From Ruminococcus sp. (GTDB taxonomy: Bacteria > Bacillota > Clostridia > Oscillospirales > Ruminococcaceae): a stretch of 39,446 nucleotides of DNA. Positions 25,676 through 39,159 of this stretch are shown here, piece after piece; position 1 is the first letter of the stretch, and every line of letters begins with the position of its first letter. The notes beneath the pieces are model-generated. The model worked only from the letters and a program-made list of their open reading frames with translations, was not told the origin of the DNA and searched no databases. Made by a program: the position numbers and the translations under genes. The stretch spans positions 1 to 39,446 of the forward strand of contig JAKSQT010000013.1 of NCBI GenBank assembly GCA_024403995.1, given 5' to 3'.

Positions 25676-28210
25676 TTATTCAGCAGAAGCAGCCTCAGGG
25701 AGTGTGTCTATGAGGTCGAGGAGGTACTTCTGAACAGAAAGGGCATCTGCATTTGTAACGCCGCTGCCGTAGTCATATGCATCAGCATTCTTGTAGCCCT
25801 TTGCAGTGATATGGGACGGGTCAGAACCGTCAAGACCATATTTTGGCTGGTTAGCGATCGACTGCATGATAAGAACAGTATCGCCCATGTTTATTTTGCC
25901 GTCGCAGTTTGCATCACCGAATACAATGTCAGGATCGGTTCCGATCGTAGTAGATGTGGTTGCAGCAGTTGTTGATGTAGTAGTTGATGATGTTGTTGTG
26001 CCTGTAGTAGTGGTTGTTGTTGTATCCTCAGGAGTTGTTTTCTTAGTTGCTTCTGTAAGTGAAAGGAGGCAGGTAAGAGGTGAGTTCCAGTAAATAGTGA
26101 TCTCGTTTGTTGAATAGCTCTCTGAGTTATCAACATAGCACTTTGCACTTGGAGAATACTTACAATAAGCCTTTGCAGCACTGTCTTCAAGGTTCTGGTT
26201 AACACCGCCTGCGAGCATACCCTTCATAGCCTTGCCGACAGCCATTGATGGTCTGTGGTGTGGATTCTTAGGTGAATCTGTACCGTAGCCGGAAACGAAG
26301 CATTTAGCAAGCGGATTTACGCCAAGGAGGTAGTTGAGCTGTGATTCAGCACAGTTGAGGTACTTGCTGTCGCCTGTGAGGTTATATGCTGTACCGAGAA
26401 TCATACCTGCATTGGCAATTGTCATATTGCTGCCCCAGTTAAATTCAGAAAGAGTAACGTCATATGCGTTTTTAGCAGTACTTGCAACATGGTCATCAGC
26501 CTGTGAGATAACAGCTTCCTTTGCGTTCATGTAAATTGTTGATTCCTTATCTATACCGTCCATTGTAAGGATAGCGATATTGCCATAGTCGCCGACAGTA
26601 GTCCAGTCGAGACCCTGTGAAGTCTTCATGCCTTCAAGAGCCTTGGAGTATTTTTCGTCGCCTGTAGCACGGAACATCTGAGCAGCAGCCCAGTAACGTT
26701 CGTCCTTGTCGCTGAGGTCACCGTAGTCACCGGTAACGATGTCGGCAGGGTTTTTGAAGTTGAATTCAGGATGTGCTTCAAGGTATGCCCATGACTTTTC
26801 AGCAGCAGCAAGGCATTTTGCAGCGAAATCCTTGTCAAATTCCTTGAAGTATTCTGAAGCCATAGCCATTGCAGCACAGAAGTCAGCAGTAGCAGTTGAA
26901 GAAACAGGAGTTACGATAAGTTCACCGACTTCAGCAGTAGGCATAACATAGCCCGGGAAAGTAGCGCATGAAACCTTGTGGTGAACGCCGCCGTCAGAGT
27001 CCTGCATTTTGAGCATCCATTCAAGTTCAAAGCGTGCTTCGTCGAGAATATCAGGAGTTTTGTTGCCGCTTTCAGGGATACCTGTAGCATCACCGAAAAG
27101 CTGTGGGTTAGTATCATAAGCATAGAAAAGGTCAGCGATGGTTTTAGCGCCCGGAACAACATAGCGTCCGTAGTCGCCGGCATCATGCCAGCCGCCTGAA
27201 ACATCGATCTTATCGCTTGTACCATAGAGAGTAGCCATATCTGTATGGCAGGCTTTATGACCGAATTCGCTGTCGTTGACTTCCACGCCGCAGCGCTGTA
27301 AATAAAGCATCTTTACAGTGTCGTCAAGAAGACTTGAATAAACGCTGTCAGAGATCTCAAATGGATATGAGTTATCGAGAGTACCGCACTTTATGCAGTA
27401 TTTACCCGGCTTGTTGAAGTCGGAGAAATCAGCGATACGATTTGTTTCTTCAGCAGTCTTGTTTTCAACGGGAGCGCTGAGTTTGCCCTTATATACAGAT
27501 TCCTTTGTTTCAGCATTGATTATCTCAAATTCATCAGCAGCGCCTTCGCCACGGATAACTGCTTTTTTCTCGGCATTTGTTCTGTAACCAACCTGATTTA
27601 CGTTGATAGGAGCTTCATACTCCTTCATTTCGTCATAGTTTACGTTGCTGTCATCAACAAGTTCAAGAGAAACGTTATCGATGTAAACAGTATGCTCAGG
27701 CATTTCGCCTTCGTGCTTTGTCTGGATACCGAGGTTGAAGCAGAGCTTAGCCATGATATCGCTTTCTTCCTTCATTGTGAAGGTGTATTCAATTGTCTGA
27801 GGCTCAGAGATGAGTTCGAGGCCTTTCCATGTATATGACTGGTATGTACCGCCGTTCTGCTGAATCATAGCTTCGATATAGCGGTCTTCTGTTGAATAGA
27901 TGTCATACTTGAATTTGTAAACACCGTTTTTGTAAAGCGGAATGATGTCATAGTAAGCCTGTACAGCATAGTTTACCTTGCCGACATCAGAGATGTGGAT
28001 AGCAAGCTTGCCGTCTTCAGCAGCAAGAGTAGCTTTGCCGCCGCTTTCCTTGTACATACCCCAGTCAGCTATACCTTTTTCAAAATCGGAATTGCTGATG
28101 AGATTGCCGGCAGCAGAAGCAGTCATAACAGAAGTCACAGGCATAGCAGAAGCCATTACCGTGCAGGCTGCAAAAGCTGCTGAAATACGTTTGAATGTGC
28201 GTTTTTTCAT
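25676..28210 (-). CDS. Cellulosomal GH9 endoglucanase with CBM4-like module and dockerin
   Basis: The 844-residue secreted enzyme has a signal peptide (cleavage near ASA-AG at about residue 34). A CBM4/9-like beta-sandwich at 36-187 and a cellulase N-terminal Ig-like domain at about 200-288 (PINVNQVGYR) come next. The GH9 catalytic domain runs from about 293 to 720. Its catalytic aspartates are in WHDAGDYGRYV (D343, D346), HHRPSMA lines the active site, and the acid Glu is in NEITIYWNSP. A Thr-rich linker leads to a dockerin at 762-840 with GDANCDGKINMGDTVLIMQ and a second repeat, NADAYDYGSGVTNADALSVQ. It would bind a scaffoldin cohesin and cut cellulose or related beta-glucans. The second dockerin loop is longer than usual. 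An AraC regulator gene lies just upstream. Confidence 0.95.
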   Translation of the reverse strand: MKKRTFKRISAAFAACTVMASAMPVTSVMTASAAGNLISNSDFEKGIADWGMYKESGGKATLAAEDGKLAIHISDVGKVNYAVQAYYDIIPLYKNGVYKFKYDIYSTEDRYIEAMIQQNGGTYQSYTWKGLELISEPQTIEYTFTMKEESDIMAKLCFNLGIQTKHEGEMPEHTVYIDNVSLELVDDSNVNYDEMKEYEAPINVNQVGYRTNAEKKAVIRGEGAADEFEIINAETKESVYKGKLSAPVENKTAEETNRIADFSDFNKPGKYCIKCGTLDNSYPFEISDSVYSSLLDDTVKMLYLQRCGVEVNDSEFGHKACHTDMATLYGTSDKIDVSGGWHDAGDYGRYVVPGAKTIADLFYAYDTNPQLFGDATGIPESGNKTPDILDEARFELEWMLKMQDSDGGVHHKVSCATFPGYVMPTAEVGELIVTPVSSTATADFCAAMAMASEYFKEFDKDFAAKCLAAAEKSWAYLEAHPEFNFKNPADIVTGDYGDLSDKDERYWAAAQMFRATGDEKYSKALEGMKTSQGLDWTTVGDYGNIAILTMDGIDKESTIYMNAKEAVISQADDHVASTAKNAYDVTLSEFNWGSNMTIANAGMILGTAYNLTGDSKYLNCAESQLNYLLGVNPLAKCFVSGYGTDSPKNPHHRPSMAVGKAMKGMLAGGVNQNLEDSAAKAYCKYSPSAKCYVDNSESYSTNEITIYWNSPLTCLLSLTEATKKTTPEDTTTTTTTGTTTSSTTTSTTAATTSTTIGTDPDIVFGDANCDGKINMGDTVLIMQSIANQPKYGLDGSDPSHITAKGYKNADAYDYGSGVTNADALSVQKYLLDLIDTLPEAASAE

Positions 28211-29894: not shown

Positions 29895-31295
29895 ATGGGT
29901 ACAGGAAAAAAGAAAGCCGTTACAGGCGGAATTATCGCAGGAGTGGCTTTAATAGTTTTGGGCACAGCAGGATATTTTATCTTTTCACAGGATGATTCTT
30001 CCGGAGCTGTTCCTGAATTTACTGTTTCAGCAGTCAGACTTGAAAAACAGGATCTTGAAAACAGCATTAATATTTCAGGAGTGATCAAGGGTGAAGAACA
30101 TCCTATTGAAAACTTGCAGAGAACAAAATGTATAAAGGTAAATGTTTCGGAAGGAGATTTTGTCAATAAAGGAGATGTTCTTTTTGAATTTGACAGAACT
30201 ACTATCCAGAACGAATACAATAAGCTTGTGAAAGAGTATAATAATGAAAGAGGCAAGCTTGAAAGCCAGCATCAGATAAACCAGCGCAATCTTGTAAAAG
30301 CCGAGGAAAGTCATAATGCTGAATATGCTGAGGCACAAAAGAAGGTAGACGATGCAGAGAATGCAAGAAATGCCGCATACAGCAAATATAATGAGCTTGT
30401 TGATCGCTTTAATTCCCTCAGTGCAAAAATCGTAGAGCTTTCAGAGCTTGGCGAAGAATATGCTGCTGAATATGCTGCTGTTGTTGAAGAATATGATGCA
30501 CTTGACAGTCAGATAGAAGAATTAAAGTCCGGACTTGATGCATATGAAAATGCAGTTACTGCGGCATATGCTGAATTAAAAAGTATAAGAAACAATGATA
30601 CGGTCCAGCAGGCAAAGGATGCACTTGATTCTGAAAAGTACTATTCATTCTCGGTTGAACAAAAGGATCTTGATATTTTGACTGAACAGATGGAAAACTG
30701 CGTTATAAAGGCAGAATGTTCAGGCATTATAACCGGTCTTGGAGTTTCAGAAGATGCAGTTCCTTCAGGTCAGCTTCTTGCTACAATAGTTGATAATTCA
30801 GACTATTTTGTAACTGCTGAACTTCCCGAAACTAAGGTCTACAAGCTCGAGGAAGGCATGAATGCTGTCCTTAAAACTGTTGCCACTGAGGAAATGGAGA
30901 TTCCCGGCGTTATAAAGAGCGTTTCAAAGCTTGCGACCCAGACAGGCGAAGGCAACAGCTATTCGGTAAAAATAGATATTACTGATGATAAAATTATGGA
31001 TAATGTATTTATCGGCATGACTTCATCGGTAAAAGTTATCCTTAACGTTACCAATGACGTATATGCTGTTCCGTATGATTCAATAATGACCGACAAGGAC
31101 GGAAATAAATTTGTTTATACTGCGGAACCTTTCAGGGATATTTACAAGGTCGGCACAATTGAAGTGGAAACAGGCGAGGAAAACGGCTATTACACTGAAA
31201 TTTCCGGTACTAAAGTCGTAAAGGATGTAATCGTTATCACCAATCCTGCAAAGCTTGAAGAAGGTACAAAAATTGATGTAACTTTTGAAGAATGA
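29895..31295 (+). CDS. MacA/HlyD-like adaptor subunit of an ABC exporter
   Basis: The 466-residue protein has an N-terminal membrane anchor (TGGIIAGVALIVLGTAGYFIFS) and a first half-lipoyl segment (IKVNVSEGDFVNKGDVLFEFD). A long coiled coil follows at about 110-240, rich in Lys, Glu and Ala. The second lipoyl half (CVIKAECSGIITGLGVSEDAVPSGQ) and beta-barrel and membrane-proximal domains complete it. In Gram-positive bacteria such adaptors join a MacB-like permease and ATPase to move peptides or drugs out of the cell. It is the first gene of a three-gene operon, with AGGAG before its ATG and the ATPase gene following after 15 bases. Confidence 0.88.
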   Translation: MGTGKKKAVTGGIIAGVALIVLGTAGYFIFSQDDSSGAVPEFTVSAVRLEKQDLENSINISGVIKGEEHPIENLQRTKCIKVNVSEGDFVNKGDVLFEFDRTTIQNEYNKLVKEYNNERGKLESQHQINQRNLVKAEESHNAEYAEAQKKVDDAENARNAAYSKYNELVDRFNSLSAKIVELSELGEEYAAEYAAVVEEYDALDSQIEELKSGLDAYENAVTAAYAELKSIRNNDTVQQAKDALDSEKYYSFSVEQKDLDILTEQMENCVIKAECSGIITGLGVSEDAVPSGQLLATIVDNSDYFVTAELPETKVYKLEEGMNAVLKTVATEEMEIPGVIKSVSKLATQTGEGNSYSVKIDITDDKIMDNVFIGMTSSVKVILNVTNDVYAVPYDSIMTDKDGNKFVYTAEPFRDIYKVGTIEVETGEENGYYTEISGTKVVKDVIVITNPAKLEEGTKIDVTFEE

Positions 31296-31310
31296 TAACA
31301 GGTGCAGACT

Positions 31311-32009
31311 ATGAATGATTCTATTATTTCACTCAAGAATATAGACAAAAAATTCAATATCGGTCAGGACAATGAATTGCAGATTCTATTTGATATTTCA
31401 CTTGAAATACCAAAGGGACAGTTTGTTTCGATAGTTGGTTCATCCGGTGCGGGAAAAAGTACTCTTATGAATATTCTCGGACTTCTTGATAAACCGACAA
31501 GCGGTTCATATACACTGAACAGATTTTGCACAAGCGAGCTTAATGATAAACAGCTAAGTAAAATTAGAAATGCCGAGATCGGCTTTGTGTTCCAGACATT
31601 CAATCTGATACCACGTCTGAATGCCATAAAAAATGTCGAACTGCCTATGCTTTATAAAGGAGTGGCACAGAAGGAACGTACTGAAAATGCCAGAAAGCTT
31701 ATGGAAATGGTCGGAATGAGTGACAGATGCGAACATTTCCCTAATCAGCTTTCAGGTGGTCAGAAGCAGCGTGTTTCCATAGCACGGGCTATGGCGAATG
31801 AACCTTCTATAATTCTTGCCGATGAGCCTACAGGCGCTCTTGATACTGTCACAGGCAGAAAGATAATGGATATTTTCCATCGCCTGAATAAAGAACAGGG
31901 AAAAACTATTGTTCTTATCACTCACAGCCCTGAGCTTGCAAGTGAGACGGACAGGATAGTCACTATCAGCGACGGAAAAATTATTTCGGATTCGGAGGGG
32001 ACACAATGA
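31311..32009 (+). CDS. MacB-type ABC transporter ATP-binding protein
   Basis: The 232-residue ATPase has Walker [11 protein letters not shown]-loop [10 protein letters not shown], signature LSGGQKQR, Walker [13 protein letters not shown] and the switch histidine in LITHS. It belongs to the LolD/MacB/SalX type that serves FtsX-like permeases. The ATG six bases after AGGTG is preferred to an upstream GTG that lies within the ribosome site. The stop overlaps the permease start by four bases (ATGA), so the two are coupled. The substrate is unknown. Confidence 0.94.
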
Positions 32010-33286
32010 ATTTGATTGAATGCGTAAAAATGGCTGTATCTTCGATAAAAGCTAACAAAATGCGTTCACTTCTTACAATGCTCGGAATAATTATCGGTAT
32101 TTCAGCAGTAATTATTATCACAACCATCGGCGGTTCTGTCAAAGCTACCATGAACAATGCCTTCAACAGCTTTGGAATGAATTATTTTTACGGCTGGTTT
32201 ACCCCCAAAGAGTATACTGAGGATGTATATGATAAACTTGAGGCTGATGATCTGCCGACTTTGCAGATGTATTATGATCTCGTTGAAAAGTATCCTGATC
32301 AGTTTGAAATTTCAGAAAATGAATTTTACTGCGACGGCAAGGTGCTTAATCAGAAAAATGATTATCAGAATATTAGTCTGCGTTGTACCACCAGCGGGTA
32401 TTTCAGTATGACAAACAAAAAATTAGCAGAGGGACGTTTTCTTACATTACGTGATGATCTCGAGAAAAAATCAGTTGCTGTTGTTTCACAAAGCTTTGCC
32501 CATAAATACTGCGGCAATTCTTCAATTATCAATAAACCGATAACAATTGCCCTTCAAACAGGAGAAGAAGCAATCTTTTATGTTGTCGGCGTTTATGAGG
32601 ACAATACAACTGATGTTGAGCGTTCTTCATCCGAGAAGACTAATATATATGTTCCTTTTCAATATTTAGTCGATCCTAAGAATTGCAGTTCAAATTATGT
32701 TACTGTTGTCTGGAATCAGGATATGGGAATTAAATCTGCAAAGGAAAACTTTACAAGATTTTTTGAAAATATTTATCACAGCAATGAATACTGGCACGTT
32801 GAAGTTGATGAATATGATCAGGAAATGCTCGGTACGATAAATATTGCTCTTAACATACTTACGATAGCATTTTCAGTCATTGCCGCAATTTCGCTGCTTG
32901 TCGGCGGTATAGGCGTTATGAATATCATGCTTGTAAGCATTGTTGAACGAACAAGTGAGATCGGTGTACGAAAAGCTCTTGGTGCACAGAATTCATCGAT
33001 ACGTATACAGTTTGTCATGGAAGCTATCATGATATGCATTATCGGAAGCATTATCGGAATACTTATCGGTCTCGGTTTCAGCTATCTGCTTGGATTTGTT
33101 GGTTCATATGTTGTTACGACGGTTGTTCCTGAATATGCCGATGTTGTGGATGTAACAGTCAAGCCGTCAGTTATCGCAATCATTATTTCTGTATTATCAT
33201 CAATATTGATAGGCGTGACATTTGGTTTCTATCCTGCAAACCGTGCCGCAAAGATGAATCCTATCGATGCTTTGAGACACGAATGA
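32006..33286 (+). CDS. MacB/FtsX-like ABC transporter permease
   Basis: The 426-residue protein has the MacB topology. One N-terminal helix follows the MRSLLTMLGIIIGISAVI signature, a MacB_PCD extracytoplasmic domain spans about residues 45-275, and three C-terminal helices follow. The loop VERTSEIGVRKALGAQNSSI is typical, as is the end NRAAKMNPIDALRHE. With the adaptor and ATPase it completes an export or signalling complex. No bacteriocin or two-component genes are adjacent, so the cargo is open. A large family A repeat starts 15 bases after the stop codon. Confidence 0.93.
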   Translation: MNLIECVKMAVSSIKANKMRSLLTMLGIIIGISAVIIITTIGGSVKATMNNAFNSFGMNYFYGWFTPKEYTEDVYDKLEADDLPTLQMYYDLVEKYPDQFEISENEFYCDGKVLNQKNDYQNISLRCTTSGYFSMTNKKLAEGRFLTLRDDLEKKSVAVVSQSFAHKYCGNSSIINKPITIALQTGEEAIFYVVGVYEDNTTDVERSSSEKTNIYVPFQYLVDPKNCSSNYVTVVWNQDMGIKSAKENFTRFFENIYHSNEYWHVEVDEYDQEMLGTINIALNILTIAFSVIAAISLLVGGIGVMNIMLVSIVERTSEIGVRKALGAQNSSIRIQFVMEAIMICIIGSIIGILIGLGFSYLLGFVGSYVVTTVVPEYADVVDVTVKPSVIAIIISVLSSILIGVTFGFYPANRAAKMNPIDALRHE

Positions 33287-33300
33287 TCATATGGATATAA

Positions 33301-33574
33301 AAAACCTCACAGTTTTAACAGCGATACTCATGTAGAAATATTATACTTATTATTGAGGGAAACCCTTTTGAAAAAGGGTTGTCCCTCAAACTCCCTTCCT
33401 AAAACTTTTGGGTGTTTTAGCGTATTTGGTATAGGACATATGTCCTATACCAAATACGCCATAATACTAAAAGTCTTTGGAAAGGGGTTCGGGGAAAAAA
33501 CTTTCCTCAGAAAGGTTTGCCCCGATAAAGAGTAAAAATTTCTATATGAGTACCGACGTTAACTGTGAGGTTTT
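33301..33574. repeat. Family A palindromic repeat, long copy with a perfect 40-bp palindrome
   Basis: Ends of 14 bp, AAAACCTCACAGTT and its complement, are perfect. Inside are two copies of the family A core hairpin in opposite orientation, near 33350-33390 and 33490-33530. Between them lies a loop-free 40-bp palindrome at 33420-33459 centred on GGACATATGTCC. The element fills the space between the convergent permease and zinc-ribbon genes and ends nine bases from the latter's stop codon. Copies 1 and 2 look like internal-deletion forms of this longer version. Confidence 0.8.
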
Positions 33575-33582
33575 GTTTTTTA

Positions 33583-35028
33583 TTACCAGTCTGAATCCCA
33601 GTCGTAGGAGTCGCTGTCCCAAGTGTCATCGCTGTCCCAGTCATAATCATAATCATAATCATCGTCATCATAATCGTAACTGCGGTTTGCTTCTTCTGCG
33701 GCACGGTTTTCTTCTTCGATATAGCTTGAATAGAAGCCTGTGTCTTCAAAATCAGTGATCTGAGTTTCAGAATTCCATGTCGGAGTGTAGTAGAAGTCAA
33801 CGGTTTTTGAAGCGTGCTGCAGATCGTCAGGCAGTTCGGAAGCAGCGATAGCCTCCCAGTCCTCATCAGGTGAATAATAATACCAGCCTGTGGAACTGTC
33901 GCCGTAAAGATGATAGTAATAGCTGTCATCATAATGATAATAGCCTCTGTCAACGGCATTATCGATAGCCTTGTCCTTAAAGAATACTGTATTGCTGAAA
34001 TCCGTGACATTAAGATCGTCCGAAAATGTTTCCGAGATGAAAAACTCGTTTGCTTTTGAAGAATGCCATAATAATTCCGGAAGTTCTTCTATATTTACGG
34101 CAGTCCAGTCATCTGAGAAAGAGTACCAGCCTGTGTTGTATTTATCGTAAAAATGATAGAAAACATTGTCCTCGGATTTGAAATATCCTTCCTTTATCCA
34201 GAAACCTGCATCAATATCTTTTTGATAGATCGAATTTGCAAAATCTTCGCATTGATATTCTTCATCCCATAGAAGACCGAGAAAATATTTTTTTGAAGGC
34301 TTTTTAGTTCTCATTTCTTCCGGCATGATATCAATATTTATCGGCTCAGACCATTTCTTTTCATCATCAAGATATCTGTACCAGTTATATCCGTCCTCGT
34401 TATAGCTTTTGTAGCAGTAGTAATAATATGAATCATCATATTTATAATATCCGGTTTTTGGATCTTTGCCGAAAATCAAAAGACCTATGGCGACAACCAG
34501 AAAAATAATGAAACATAAGATTGGCATACATATCAGATAGACGAGCATCTGTCCTATTCCCGTACCAAACATGACATCCTTGACCGCATCAAATGCATCT
34601 TCAAGCTTTTCACCGACGCTTTCGCCGACAGAACTTTTTAAGGCATCATTGCGTTTTTTCTGGTCAATGATCTGCTCTTTCAGTTTGGTATAGATCTCGT
34701 TTACTGCATATGCTTCATCTGTGCCCTCATATCTTATAGCTCTTTCGCCCGATGCCTTGTTTTTATAGACGATGAAATTTCCTGATATTTTATCCTGATA
34801 AATTCCGAAAGCCTTTGGCGATTTGCAGTTAACTCCGATAAAAAATCTTGTAACATTAGGCGGCGGAAGATGTCTGTCTGAATACCATTTTTTCAGTGCA
34901 GTGATAGTTTTCGGTTTGCCTTTTGAATCTTTGGCATTTTTATATGATGCATTTTCGCCTCCGCAGTCGGGGCATACCTTTTCAGAATCGTCGAAATAGT
35001 TTCCGCAGAAACTGCATTTTATCTTCAA
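33583..35028 (-). CDS. Zinc-ribbon membrane protein with Tyr/Trp-rich repeats, function unknown
   Basis: This 481-residue protein has an N-terminal zinc ribbon (CSFCG and CPDCG, residues 5-23). A domain at about 41-125 (LPPPNVTRFFIG, AFGIYQDK, YEGTDEAYAVNE) is shared with the next gene upstream, and one membrane helix spans about 162-187. Three tandem repeats of roughly 75-80 residues follow at about 193, 281 and 362, each with a GYYxYDDSYYYxxY start, GWY and DFxxTxF. The tail (451-481) is almost only Asp, Tyr, Trp and Ser. The start is TTG, seven bases after GAGGTGG. It is the last gene of a three-gene operon. The zinc ribbon would be cytoplasmic and the repeats outside if the helix runs N-in. 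No function is known to me. Confidence 0.72.
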   Translation of the reverse strand: MKIKCSFCGNYFDDSEKVCPDCGGENASYKNAKDSKGKPKTITALKKWYSDRHLPPPNVTRFFIGVNCKSPKAFGIYQDKISGNFIVYKNKASGERAIRYEGTDEAYAVNEIYTKLKEQIIDQKKRNDALKSSVGESVGEKLEDAFDAVKDVMFGTGIGQMLVYLICMPILCFIIFLVVAIGLLIFGKDPKTGYYKYDDSYYYYCYKSYNEDGYNWYRYLDDEKKWSEPINIDIMPEEMRTKKPSKKYFLGLLWDEEYQCEDFANSIYQKDIDAGFWIKEGYFKSEDNVFYHFYDKYNTGWYSFSDDWTAVNIEELPELLWHSSKANEFFISETFSDDLNVTDFSNTVFFKDKAIDNAVDRGYYHYDDSYYYHLYGDSSTGWYYYSPDEDWEAIAASELPDDLQHASKTVDFYYTPTWNSETQITDFEDTGFYSSYIEEENRAAEEANRSYDYDDDDYDYDYDWDSDDTWDSDSYDWDSDW

Positions 35029-35040
35029 CTTCGAGCCACC

Positions 35041-35430
35041 TCACTTTTTCTTAGCATTCAGCATTTTCTGCTGTAAAATTTCTGCTTTAAGCCGCTGAAA
35101 CATTTCATTTACTGCATATTCCTCGTCATTGCCCTCATAGTGAATGCATCTTTTTCCTGATGAAGTGTTCTTGTAAACGACGATATTTCCGCTGTTTGTA
35201 TCAAGGTAAATTCCGAAAGCACGTTCGCCCTTGTAATTTTCTCCGATAAAAAATCTCGTTACATTATAAGGCGGAAGCCCCTTGGACTTGTACCATTCTA
35301 TAAGTTCATCAATAGTATGCGGCTGATCAGCAGCGGTTCTGGCGATCGAATCGTTCTGTGCTCCACAGTTCGGGCATTTTGTCAGTGCTGCACTGAACAG
35401 ACTGCCGCAGTATTCACATTTTACTTCCAT
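35041..35430 (-). CDS. Small zinc-ribbon protein, paralogue of the larger zinc-ribbon gene product
   Basis: This protein of about 129 residues has a zinc ribbon (CEYCG and CPNCG) and the same following domain as its neighbour: LPPYNVTRFFIG, AFGIYLDTNSGNIVVYKNTSSGKR and YEGNDEEYAVNEMFQRLK. It has no membrane segment or repeats. The start is placed at the ATG that aligns with the paralogue's start, four bases after GGTGAG; an ATG at 35442 overlaps the stop codon of the preceding gene. Its own stop codon overlaps the ribosome site of the downstream gene. Tight packing and paralogy suggest the two zinc-ribbon proteins work together. The function is unknown. Confidence 0.72.
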   Translation of the reverse strand: MEVKCEYCGSLFSAALTKCPNCGAQNDSIARTAADQPHTIDELIEWYKSKGLPPYNVTRFFIGENYKGERAFGIYLDTNSGNIVVYKNTSSGKRCIHYEGNDEEYAVNEMFQRLKAEILQQKMLNAKKK

Positions 35431-35441
35431 ATCTCTCACCA

Positions 35442-36827
35442 TTATTCTTCTTCAAAATTTGTACAGCCCATATTCGTGAAGAAATTGCTGTAATCCTTTT
35501 TTCTCAGGCGGCGGATATTATCCATATAGTGTCTTACCGCAATAGAATCGTCAAGCTCTGTATATTCGCCTATTCTTTCGCAGAACGACTCGGTTTCTTC
35601 CATAAGCACCGAATAATAAAGTCTTTGTCTTAGCCATGTTTCCCTATGTGCAAGCACCTCGGAAAGATTTGTGACCGCAGTCAGCAATGCAGACAATGTT
35701 GTGGAAATAATACCGAAGATCAGGCATATTGCCGATGATGAATTTTTGCTTGAAAAAGCTGTGAATATCGCTGATGCGAGCGTTATCAGCACAGGCAGGG
35801 TATAAGTTGTAAGTGCAGTGTACCATCCGTGTTTTTTGCGGTGAGTATTTGCACTTTTGGAAACATCACGAATTTCCTGCATAACGCCGTCGAAGAAATC
35901 CTCATCAAAACTGTCGATACAGCCGTTTTCCACAAGATGATCCCAGTGCTTTCTGTAATAATCAAGCTTGATATTTTCAGCTTTCCAGCGTCCTTTGAGA
36001 GTTGTTTCTTCATGATCGGTGACAGACACTTCACGCTCGGATTCGGTATGTGAAAGGCTGTGCTGCATTTCATCAAGTAAGGGATACAGATATTTTTTCA
36101 GGAAATCATTTACTGTTTTGGAAATAAGAGCATCGATCTCATTACTTTTGATCGAAGCAGTGCTTGATCGCAGCGTTTCGGTGTTTCCGCTGCTGATATC
36201 TTCATCAGCTTTGCCGAACATAACAGATATCTCGTCATGCAGTTTTCTGTACCATGAGATCTGTTCGGCGTTTTCCGCATCAGCAAATTCGTCAACTGTA
36301 AGGAAATCGCTCATTTTCAAACCGTATTTCTGTTTATAGTAAGGATTGAGCTTTGTGTAGTCATTGTAGATGTCATGCCAGAAGTCTTTGCAGTTTATGA
36401 TTTTCAAAGTTTTATCGGGCTGTCTTTGCACAAAATGAGGCGCTTCAGCAGCCGTACCTGATACAAATGAAGCAATTCCCTTTATGTAATTTTCAAACTG
36501 AATATCGAGGTAAAGATGCAGCGCATATCCGATATACAGCGGTTCATCGAGGCGGAGACGGTGCTTTTTTATAAAATACTCCATATCAGGTGTTTTGAAA
36601 TATGAATATTTATCAGGGGCATAATGTGCTTTTCGGTTCATGGCATCCGCATCTTTGCAGGCTGCAAGCTTTGCGGCATCGGGAAGGACACTTCCTGTCA
36701 TGAATTTTTTTCTGTCGTTTTCGCTGAAAATCGGCGTGGAAATAGCGGGACATTTTTCTGATGCATATTTTTCTGCAAGCTGCATGGCTTTTATTCCGCA
36801 GGCTGAATGAATACTGTAACCCGGCAT
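35442..36827 (-). CDS. Zinc-dependent phospholipase C-like domain fused to a SLATT/DUF4231-like two-helix module
   Basis: The N-terminal part (about residues 1-200) has the pattern of the Zn_dep_PLPC family. H7 is in YSIHSACGIKAM, D50 in GSVLPDAA, H68 in AHYAPD, and H104 and D108 in GYALHLYLD, all possible metal ligands. A linker with charged and Ser-rich stretches follows. The C-terminal part has two hydrophobic helices at about 338-359 and 366-386, then the soluble helix ETWLRQRLYYSVLMEETESFCERIGEY. This resembles DUF4231/SLATT modules, which form membrane effectors in several nucleotide-signalling defence systems. AGGAGAG precedes the ATG. It heads the operon with the two zinc-ribbon genes. 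The domain calls rest on reading by eye. Confidence 0.6.
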   Translation of the reverse strand: MPGYSIHSACGIKAMQLAEKYASEKCPAISTPIFSENDRKKFMTGSVLPDAAKLAACKDADAMNRKAHYAPDKYSYFKTPDMEYFIKKHRLRLDEPLYIGYALHLYLDIQFENYIKGIASFVSGTAAEAPHFVQRQPDKTLKIINCKDFWHDIYNDYTKLNPYYKQKYGLKMSDFLTVDEFADAENAEQISWYRKLHDEISVMFGKADEDISSGNTETLRSSTASIKSNEIDALISKTVNDFLKKYLYPLLDEMQHSLSHTESEREVSVTDHEETTLKGRWKAENIKLDYYRKHWDHLVENGCIDSFDEDFFDGVMQEIRDVSKSANTHRKKHGWYTALTTYTLPVLITLASAIFTAFSSKNSSSAICLIFGIISTTLSALLTAVTNLSEVLAHRETWLRQRLYYSVLMEETESFCERIGEYTELDDSIAVRHYMDNIRRLRKKDYSNFFTNMGCTNFEEE

Positions 36828-36903
36828 TGGTTTCTCTCCTAAGCTTTTAGCAGCGCCGTTTGATTTTATGTGGAACTGCTATAAAAATTTCATGTAATAA
36901 TAT

Positions 36904-36932
36904 ATTATAACATATTTCAAAATAATGGTCAA
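36904..36932 (-). promoter_or_regulatory. Promoter of the zinc-ribbon/SLATT-like operon
   Basis: On the minus strand TTGACC and TATAAT are 17 bases apart, about 77 bases before the ATG. Confidence 0.75.
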
Positions 36933-37184: not shown

Positions 37185-37364
37185 TTAAGGCAACACCGCA
37201 CAAAGATTGTGCGGCAGAAACGCAGTTAGATTTTTCGTCAGATTGTACAGAAATTTTGCAGGCATACTGTCGTATGGCAAAGAATTTCTGTGCAAGATGA
37301 CGGAAAAGATACAAGTTTATGACGTACAAAGTCGTCAGACGTGCTTTGTGCGGTGTTGCCTTAA
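37185..37364. repeat. Family B MITE-like element, complete copy
   Basis: The 180-bp element has perfect 21-bp terminal inverted repeats containing GGCAACACCGCACAAAG, with TTAA at both outer ends. An internal inverted repeat pairs the stretch near 37237 (CGTCAGATTGTACAGAAATT) with the one near 37285-37303, so the whole element can fold on itself. It encodes no protein. The right half recurs exactly at 1-54, and shorter forms lie at 29785 and 39345. Confidence 0.85.
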
Positions 37365-37446
37365 TTAATATGTATGATTTAACTGATGTACCGACGGCTC
37401 TTCACTGTCGAAAAAATAAAGATGCAGTCAGAAGGAGGAATTGAAA

Positions 37447-39159
37447 ATGAAGAAGATGGTATCCATCACAACGGCAGCTGCAATATCTGCTCTCTCGGTT
37501 GCAGGCTGCTTCCCGACGGTTTATGCGGAAGAAACTGCAGATTACCAGCCGGAAACTGCAAATGTACTTTTTGCAGAGAGTATACCTGACAGTATTCCGC
37601 TGCTTGATGACGAAAGTGCTGATTACATCTTTCATGACTCATTCGAGGGCGGAGAGAACGGCTGGGGCGGCAGAGCATCAGAAACAGTTGCTTCATCCAC
37701 AAAAGCTGCATATCAGGGCAGCGGTTCACTTTATGTTTCCGGCAGAAGTGATTCGTGGAACGGTCCTATCAAGTCACTCGGTTCTGAATTTGCGGCAGGT
37801 GAAACTTACAGTTTCAGCTGCAACGTAATGTATGAGACAGGCTCGGCAGATGATCTGTTTCATTTCACCATGCAGTATGACGCAGGCGGCGAAACACATT
37901 ATGACAAAATAGCATCCGCAACAATTCCAAAGGGCGAATGGGGACAGCTTGCAAACAAGGAGTTCAAAATTCCTGACGGTGCCGAAAATATCTCAATATA
38001 CGCTGAAACTGACACAAGTAAGGTCTCTTTCTATATTGATGAGGTAATTGCAGCAAAGGCAGGTACAGAAATTAAGGGCGCAGTTCCGAGAACACTTCTT
38101 CTCGGTGATGTAAACTTTGATGGTCAGATCGATGCTCTTGATGTTGCTATGGCAAGAGACGGACTTATCAATGAGTTCAGCGATAAGCTTACAAAAAGTG
38201 CAGCAGACGTAGATAAGAGCACTGAATTTGAAATTAATGACCTCGTTCTCATTCAGGAATTTGCTCTTGGCAAAACAACGGAATTCCCTGACAATGCTCC
38301 TGAACTTCCGCCTGAGCCTGTATCCACATTTGAATATAATTCTGCTGTTTCATATCATGCAGCTCCTAATGACTATCTTGGCAACTGCTCGCAGAAGGGA
38401 ACGGTACACAAGGAAACATACAACAGCATCAACGGCAACAAGACACTTTATGTCTATACTCCGTACAACTATGATCCTGAAAAGAAGTATAATATCTTCT
38501 ATATCATGCACGGCGGCGGAGAAAATGAAAATACTGTTTTCGGAACAGATGTTGAGCTTGACAATATTCTTGACCATATGATCATGAACGGCGACCTTGA
38601 ACCGATGATAGTTGTTACACCTACATTCAACGGCGGCAACTGTTCTGCACAGAACTTCTATCAGGAATTCAGAGCAAATGTTGTACCGTTTGTTGAGGGC
38701 AAGTATTCAACATATGCAGAATCCACGGATGCCGCAGGTATTGAGGCTTCAAGAATGCACAGAGCATACGGCGGCTTCTCAATGGGCGGCGTTTCAACAT
38801 GGGCTGTAATGCAGAACTGTCTTGATATGGTTGGATATTTCATGCCTCTCAGCGGCGACCACTGGGATGGCAACTCTGCTCAGGAAAAGGCACAGTCAAT
38901 CGGAAATGCAATCAATAAAGCCGGTCTTACACCGAGAGATTACTTCATCTTTGCCGCTACAGGTTCAGATGATATCGCATATCCTAACATAAGTCCACAG
39001 GTTGAGGCAATGAAGCCGATGTCACAGTTTGTATATACTTCCGACTTCTCACAGGGTAACTTCTACTTCCTTGTAGCTCCGGGATTGACTCACTGGTGGG
39101 GATATGTAAGACATTATGTATATGATGCACTTCCTTATTTCTTCCATGAAAATCAGTAA
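37447..39159 (+). CDS. Cellulosomal CE1-type esterase with CBM22-like module and internal dockerin
   Basis: The 570-residue secreted protein starts with a signal peptide. Cleavage at VYA-EE is likely, but LSVAGC is also a possible lipobox. A CBM22-like module lies at about 58-207 (SFEGGENGWGGRA and SLYVSGRSDSWNGP). A dockerin at about 218-285 (LLGDVNFDGQIDALDVAMARDG and ADVDKSTEFEINDLVLIQEF) is followed by a CE1/esterase D-like alpha/beta hydrolase at about 300-570. That domain has the nucleophile Ser445 in GFSMGG and a probable catalytic His549 in GLTHWWG. Such enzymes remove ferulate or acetate from xylan. The dockerin differs clearly from that of the GH9 enzyme. The start is the ATG after AAGGAGGAATTG. 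Confidence 0.92.
   Translation: MKKMVSITTAAAISALSVAGCFPTVYAEETADYQPETANVLFAESIPDSIPLLDDESADYIFHDSFEGGENGWGGRASETVASSTKAAYQGSGSLYVSGRSDSWNGPIKSLGSEFAAGETYSFSCNVMYETGSADDLFHFTMQYDAGGETHYDKIASATIPKGEWGQLANKEFKIPDGAENISIYAETDTSKVSFYIDEVIAAKAGTEIKGAVPRTLLLGDVNFDGQIDALDVAMARDGLINEFSDKLTKSAADVDKSTEFEINDLVLIQEFALGKTTEFPDNAPELPPEPVSTFEYNSAVSYHAAPNDYLGNCSQKGTVHKETYNSINGNKTLYVYTPYNYDPEKKYNIFYIMHGGGENENTVFGTDVELDNILDHMIMNGDLEPMIVVTPTFNGGNCSAQNFYQEFRANVVPFVEGKYSTYAESTDAAGIEASRMHRAYGGFSMGGVSTWAVMQNCLDMVGYFMPLSGDHWDGNSAQEKAQSIGNAINKAGLTPRDYFIFAATGSDDIAYPNISPQVEAMKPMSQFVYTSDFSQGNFYFLVAPGLTHWWGYVRHYVYDALPYFFHENQ

Follow-up and report, generated by a model that had tools for sequence, protein, structure and literature searches.

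SLATT proteins are predicted in the literature to act as pore-forming, membrane-disrupting effectors (PMC7159879), and RADAR loci that include a SLATT gene have already been published (PMC7699616, PMC11676413). The role of the SLATT protein in such SLATT-associated RADAR loci is not stated in the available parts of these two accounts, and a term search in a further article (PMC9994260) found neither SLATT nor Csx27 in its text. Here, a 39,446-nucleotide stretch of Ruminococcus sp. DNA (contig JAKSQT010000013.1, termed the window) was analyzed, which contains a three-gene operon on the minus strand. The first gene product, P0001, joins a phospholipase C (PLC)-like domain to a SLATT/DUF4231 module, and SLATT relatives of P0001 directly adjoin RADAR genes in four of six loci. 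While SLATT effectors and SLATT-associated RADAR are known, the PLC-like partner, fused or adjacent, is a new feature. No description of this combination was found in a limited text search. The window is one entire contig of a 2.58 Mb genome assembly that is 86% complete and consists of 179 contigs.

The SLATT module and its RADAR neighborhood

The following features of gene 1 were assigned:
35442..36827, minus strand: gene 1 (P0001), 461 amino acids, PLC-like domain plus SLATT/DUF4231 module with two predicted membrane helices
36228..36827, minus strand: PLC-like domain, residues ~1-200 (H7, D50, H68, H104xxxD108, Y154/Y157/T158/N161), probable from a sub-threshold PF00882 match, conservation in five relatives and profile comparison
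35442..36005, minus strand: SLATT/DUF4231 region, residues ~275-461 (PF14015 24.4 bits, PF18142 24.3 bits, alignments)
35748..35819, minus strand: membrane helix 1, residues 337-360, predicted from hydropathy
35664..35741, minus strand: membrane helix 2, residues 363-388, predicted from hydropathy

The score of P0001 against DUF4231 (PF14015) is 24.4 bits, 0.3 below the cut-off of 24.7, and its scores against SLATT_fungal (PF18142; 24.3 bits, cut-off 26.5) and NCBIfam SLATT_1 (21.2, with 41 required) are also insufficient. The assignment nevertheless stands because P0001 is homologous to the SLATT relatives L024 and L026, which both pass the DUF4231 cut-off (31.7 and 34.1 bits); the relative L042 remained under it with 16.7 bits. 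The two-helix SLATT/DUF4231-like module of the original prediction is thus supported by homology for the C-terminal part of P0001. Alignments revealed a Y(x)2FFxN signature at the C-terminus of the SLATT subgroup to which P0001 belongs.

Six loci with SLATT relatives were compared, namely the window, L024, L026, L042, L043 and L044, and RADAR genes directly adjoin the SLATT gene in L024, L026, L042 and L043. The first two share the gene order ATPase gene, rdrB, membrane-type protein and SLATT. L042 shows the order rdrB, PLC-like gene and SLATT, and L043 contains a PLC-like gene, SLATT and an ATPase gene that is cut off at the contig end. PADLOC identified RdrB in L024 (8.5e-30) and L026 (3.6e-23), as well as two RdrB pieces (7e-13 and 7e-8) in L042, which shares its contig with L025; A_deaminase was above its Pfam cut-off. 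The ATPase of L043 closely resembles that of L024 (E 2.2e-118), and the three ATPase genes of L024, L026 and L043 are termed RdrA-like based on their position before RdrB and their mutual similarity, with none of the three matched by the PADLOC RdrA model. The window and L044, a 14-kb contig, contain PLC-SLATT units without RADAR alongside. The membrane-type proteins located between rdrB and SLATT (L024 8471-9289, 272 amino acids; L026 1602-2333, 243 amino acids) occupy the slot that is filled by the PLC-like gene in L042, which suggests a variable accessory position. The 243-residue protein has a zinc-ribbon-like start by eye.

Relatives of P0001 are rare. They were detected in four of 125 genus genomes (G000, G201, G286 and G305) and in three of 197 family genomes, both counts including the window; one of the latter, G162, is distant and covers the PLC part only. 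A pattern-limited scan of GTDB species genomes, with 67 stretches fitting a pattern, yielded three P0001-relative loci, two of them on the contigs of G305 and G286 themselves, and a SLATT profile search of 391 class genomes matched the window alone. Pattern-limited scans of viral contigs detected no relative of P0001, SLATT or PLC, and plasmids contained no relative of P0001, the L044 SLATT or the L103 PLC. Profile searches of solved structures provided nothing useful (SLATT, one match with E 0.83; PLC, none; A5, twenty matches with E 0.021 or worse).

The RdrB model matched three of the 125 genus genomes (G201, G242 and G305) and co-occurs with P0001 relatives in two of the 125 (hypergeometric P 0.0023). 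If G286 is counted via its ATPase gene, three of four are common (P 5e-5), with the ATPase searched in part of the 125 genomes only. The RdrA query matched three of the six genomes searched, one being its own genome of origin. In G242, RADAR was present without a P0001-type SLATT within the 19 kb covered.

A PLC-like domain accompanies SLATT in some loci

Five close PLC-domain loci were available for comparison (the window, L042, L043, L044 and L103). The residues H7, D50, H104 and D108, present at the predicted positions, are invariant in all five, as are P80-D81, G100-Y101, Y154, Y157, T158 and N161. H68 is also where it had been predicted; the aligner shifts this histidine by one or two columns, and an [A/S/T]H[F/Y] motif is present by eye in all five loci. 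By comparison with the phospholipase C of B. cereus, H7, D50, H68, H104 and D108 are putative zinc ligands.

The assignment to Zn_dep_PLPC (PF00882) is less direct, with P0001 reaching 16.8 bits and its first 276 residues 15.2 bits against a cut-off of 26.8. Three of the five subfamily members matched PF00882 at E<=10 (best E 0.0074). For profile comparison, 12 PF00882 loci from the family's genomes were returned, of which 8 proteins, all over the cut-off, were usable after a motif filter; L096, L098 and L101 (no protein), L102 (wrong frame) and L034 were left out. In local mode, hhalign aligned the PLC profile to these eight proteins with a score of 27.8 (P 0.0042, probability just 8%), while the controls, comprising the SLATT profile, the TRFFIG profile and eight column-shuffled versions, gave 9.5-14.5. 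When the local alignment is extended, His/Asp positions of PF00882 coincide with, or lie close to, H7, D50, H68, H104 and D108. The match is credible for the N-terminal part and weak elsewhere, and residues ~1-200 probably represent a divergent relative of zinc-dependent PLC.

SLATT is fused or adjacent to the PLC-like domain in four of the five loci, with L103 being solitary. The geometry differs: the window has a fusion, the two genes overlap by 4 bases in L044, are 12 bases apart in L043 and abut in another frame in L042, a 3.3-kb contig whose rdrB is also split into frames. Because four of six SLATT-relative loci lie beside RADAR genes and four of five PLC loci contain SLATT, the PLC-like domain is, judged from gene neighborhoods, one of the partners in some of the RADAR loci that include SLATT.

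The 413-residue SLATT protein of L043 has no Pfam match. Its N-terminus is a degenerate copy of the PLC-like domain that scores 35.7 in hhalign, compared with no more than 23.9 for 60 shuffles; in this copy, H104 and D108 are replaced and metal ligands are lost. An intact PLC-like gene, the SLATT gene with the ligand-less PLC-like N-terminus and the RdrA-like gene follow each other in L043 10001-14286, an arrangement reminiscent of an enzyme/pseudo-enzyme pair. The 4.3-kb PLC locus L103 and the P0002 loci L046 and L047 stem from records labeled as phage that carry, as judged by eye, chromosomal-looking genes (EF-P, serine dehydratase, phosphoglucomutase); they are presumably bacterial and were handled as bacterial DNA.

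Operon layout and the zinc-ribbon/TRFFIG proteins

The remaining features of the operon are:
35041..35442, minus strand: gene 2 (P0002), 133 amino acids, zinc ribbon plus 'TRFFIG' domain, no membrane helix; start possibly the ATG at 35430
33583..35028, minus strand: gene 3 (P0003), 481 amino acids, TTG start, zinc ribbon, TRFFIG domain, membrane helix, three Tyr-rich repeats and acidic WDSDW tail
34453..34575, minus strand: hydrophobic stretch (membrane helix) of gene 3, residues 152-192, predicted from hydropathy
33709..34458, minus strand: three ~80-residue Tyr-rich repeats of gene 3, residues ~191-440
36904..36932, minus strand: sigma-70-like promoter candidate TTGACC-17-TATAAT, extended TG, 11/12, just upstream of gene 1; consensus match only
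36834..36840, minus strand: ribosome-binding-site-like AGGAGAG ahead of gene 1, read directly

The three open reading frames (36827-35442, 35442-35041 and 35028-33583) nearly abut, as had been predicted, and all are intact and preceded by a plausible ribosome-binding site. The stop codon of gene 1 and the first ATG of gene 2 share one base (TAATG). The starts of relatives are better matched by another in-frame ATG located 12 bases further on, which would place genes 1 and 2 11 bases apart. The stop codon of gene 2 is separated by 12 bases from the TTG start of gene 3, which is preceded by GAGGTGG. The single promoter that had also been proposed is matched by the TTGACC-17-TATAAT site, the highest-scoring site of this kind in the region, yet such sites are no commoner than in shuffled sequences (14 sites, shuffle mean 13.0). 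As each of the three proteins has relatives elsewhere, all of them exceed what is expected of chance open reading frames.

P0002 and P0003 are approximately 50% identical and share the zinc-ribbon cysteines and the motifs LPPxNVTRFFIG, AFGIYxD and YEGxDExYAVNE, in agreement with the original prediction. The membrane helix and Tyr-rich repeats assigned to one paralogue were located in P0003: hydropathy indicated one hydrophobic stretch (residues 152-192) in this protein and none in P0002. Compared pairwise, the P0003 repeats are 30-37% identical and score 49-70 bits, whereas one pair shuffled 100 times did not exceed 23.5 bits. In alignments, the helix is common to P0003-type members, as are a YYxY block and a WDSDW-type tail at the C-terminus. 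Proteins with TRFFIG/WDSDW features that lack the zinc ribbon were found in L033 and L083-L086; the TRFFIG domain would therefore be the constant part of the family.

The zinc-ribbon/TRFFIG proteins constitute a sparse Clostridia family without common neighbors. They were detected in seven of 197 family genomes at E<=1e-6 (12 at 1e-3), in 12 of 391 class genomes at 1e-8 and, among the 125 genus genomes, in the window only at E<=1e-6. Neighbor families at the 13 loci of the class scan are common to pairs of loci at most. BLAST detected no P0001, RADAR or SLATT relative at these loci, and six loci of the family scan contained no P0001 relative; the neighborhoods of L046-L048 were judged by eye only. 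In L074, a P0002-like gene comes directly after a P0003-like one, so the tandem occurs outside the window. Among the loci examined, all three protein types were found together in the window only, and the suggestion of one conserved three-gene system was not borne out. On a 284-kb viral contig (L048 6392-8741), a zinc-ribbon/TRFFIG protein is encoded two genes from an SPFH/Band-7 zinc-ribbon protein.

Genomic surroundings of the operon

The operon is flanked by plus-strand genes, with an ABC efflux system at 29895-33286 (HlyD, ABC_tran, MacB/FtsX) on one side and a dockerin-bearing esterase at 37441-39159 on the other. PADLOC was applied to ten other window proteins. Three ABC-transporter proteins matched generic ABC/AAA ATPase, LolE-type or coiled-coil models, the best being mad3 (4.8e-35, ABC ATPase) and CARF_LolE_TM (1.3e-11, permease), and the other seven had no match at 1e-3. 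No cyclic-nucleotide synthase or SLOG sensor was found by PADLOC among these ten proteins, and an interpretation of the operon as a complete CBASS locus was rejected. Relatives of the ABC-transporter gene, tried as a marker for an empty insertion site, were present in eight of 40 genomes including its own, with the others at most 51% identical.

Upstream of the operon, a 180-bp element (37185-37364) whose terminal inverted repeats (TTAAGGCAACACCGCACAAAG) match perfectly over 21 bp also contains an internal inverted repeat and resembles a miniature transposable element. A second inverted-repeat region (33301-33574) with 14-bp perfect arms (AAAACCTCACAGTT) 246 bp apart is located just downstream. 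The esterase gene and a GH9 cellulase-type gene (25676-28210) give the genome a cellulosomal appearance.

Proposed function and alternative explanations

We tentatively propose, at somewhat less than an even chance, that the product of gene 1 is an effector of the RADAR-accessory type that acts on the membrane, in which SLATT would serve as pore or anchor and the PLC-like part as a lipid-cutting or ligand-sensing head, with P0002 and P0003 as local regulators. The two SLATT helices would lie in the cell membrane, which would be opened or damaged upon a trigger. The PLC-like domain, presumably cytoplasmic and either a metal-dependent phosphoesterase or derived from one, would be held at the membrane by SLATT and could cut phospholipid head groups or sense a phosphorylated ligand. 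In RADAR loci, RdrA/RdrB would provide the trigger, while the PLC-SLATT unit of the window might act alone or under the control of P0002 and P0003. P0002 is predicted to be soluble and P0003 anchored with its Tyr-rich part probably facing outward, and the pair may report envelope disturbance. It is quite unlikely that the strongest version holds throughout, in which PLC-SLATT would be an interchangeable RADAR accessory that cuts phospholipids and opens membranes, here turned into an autonomous defense under a zinc-ribbon/TRFFIG sensor pair, one member of which reads the envelope. The anti-phage role suggested earlier is supported by association for gene 1, because four of six SLATT-relative loci adjoin RADAR genes; it has no such support for genes 2 and 3, and the scanned neighbors in the window are non-defense genes.

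Several observations weigh against the proposed effector, beginning with the models themselves. The SLATT regions of L043 and L044 are too divergent to match any SLATT or DUF4231 model, and the only PADLOC match of P0001 was a weak one to PtuB (15.5 bits, E 0.0033). In global mode, hhalign lent no support to the PLC/PF00882 relationship (1.6), and the downstream His and HxxxE positions of PF00882 have no P0001 counterpart in the alignment to eight members. Of the predicted zinc-dependent PLC, the N-terminal ligands and the local profile match thus stood, while the full ligand set did not. The missing later ligands would fit a non-enzymatic PLC-like domain that senses a ligand or serves in assembly to gate SLATT, as would the ligand-less PLC copy fused to SLATT in L043. 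This variant is unlikely, given that H7, D50, H68, H104, D108 and the Y/YT/N motif are kept in five relatives and that L043 also retains an intact separate PLC copy.

RdrB could not be found in the genome of the window at the completeness given above, with 14 control genomes being equally silent. RdrA was not found either, a weaker absence since the same query misses the divergent copy of G242, and the window open reading frames had no RdrA match. An interpretation of the operon as a complete RADAR locus was rejected. The effector proposed above could instead be an orphan, stranded by RADAR loss and co-transcribed with two unrelated acquired genes without a joint function. Besides the absent RdrA/RdrB, the three-gene combination seen solely in the window, the failure to find P0002/P0003 in the other 124 genus genomes and the inverted-repeat elements on both sides are in line with such an origin. 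It is nonetheless improbable: none of the three frames is broken, the genes are closely packed into one operon and begin at plausible start sites, P0001 retains its N-terminal metal ligands, and L044 independently has a PLC-SLATT pair without RADAR.

The remaining counter-evidence concerns the neighborhoods. No SLATT was found on the 4.3 kb of L103 or on the 14 kb around the distant PLC relative L034, relatives of P0002/P0003 have no common defense neighbor, and the ABC-transporter genes are read as an ordinary efflux system rather than a defense island because of their generic PADLOC matches and Pfam content. Such findings would suit an envelope-maintenance operon, in which P0001 would remodel the lipid of the membrane and the envelope would be sensed or stabilized by P0002/P0003. 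The solitary PLC-like relatives, the scanned non-defense flanks, the mostly housekeeping-looking surroundings of P0002/P0003 relatives at the 13 class-scan loci and the SPFH/Band-7 neighbor in L048 all point in this direction. We regard envelope maintenance as somewhat unlikely, since four of six SLATT-relative loci adjoin RADAR genes and the distribution of gene 1 relatives (four of 125 genus genomes) is too patchy for a maintenance function.

Comparison with known systems

Four known groups come closest to the locus. With SLATT-associated RADAR (rdrABCD) it has the SLATT family in common, whose members in four relatives are immediate neighbors of RADAR genes. It differs in that the window is without rdrA/rdrB, neither of which was found in the genome, and in the fusion of SLATT to a PLC-like domain. 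The two-helix module of P0001 resembles SLATT/DUF4231 effectors (PF14015, PF18142), from which the N-terminal PLC-like fusion and the C-terminal Y(x)2FFxN of its subgroup set it apart. The motifs MPxxxxH, FxxGxxxPD, a His and GYxxHxYxD occur in P0001 in the register of Zn_dep_PLPC (PF00882), whereas its score is below the cut-off and a conserved YxxYTxxN is present instead of the downstream His/Glu positions. P0003 is a member of the Clostridia zinc-ribbon/TRFFIG/WDSDW membrane protein family, unlike its relatives in having three Tyr-rich repeats (one, by eye, in six aligned full-length relatives) and in sharing an operon with PLC-SLATT. This operon ties PLC-SLATT to a family that is known to Pfam by its zinc ribbon only. 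That a SLATT relative bears a metal-enzyme-like lipase domain within one polypeptide suggests that the RADAR accessory acts on the membrane.

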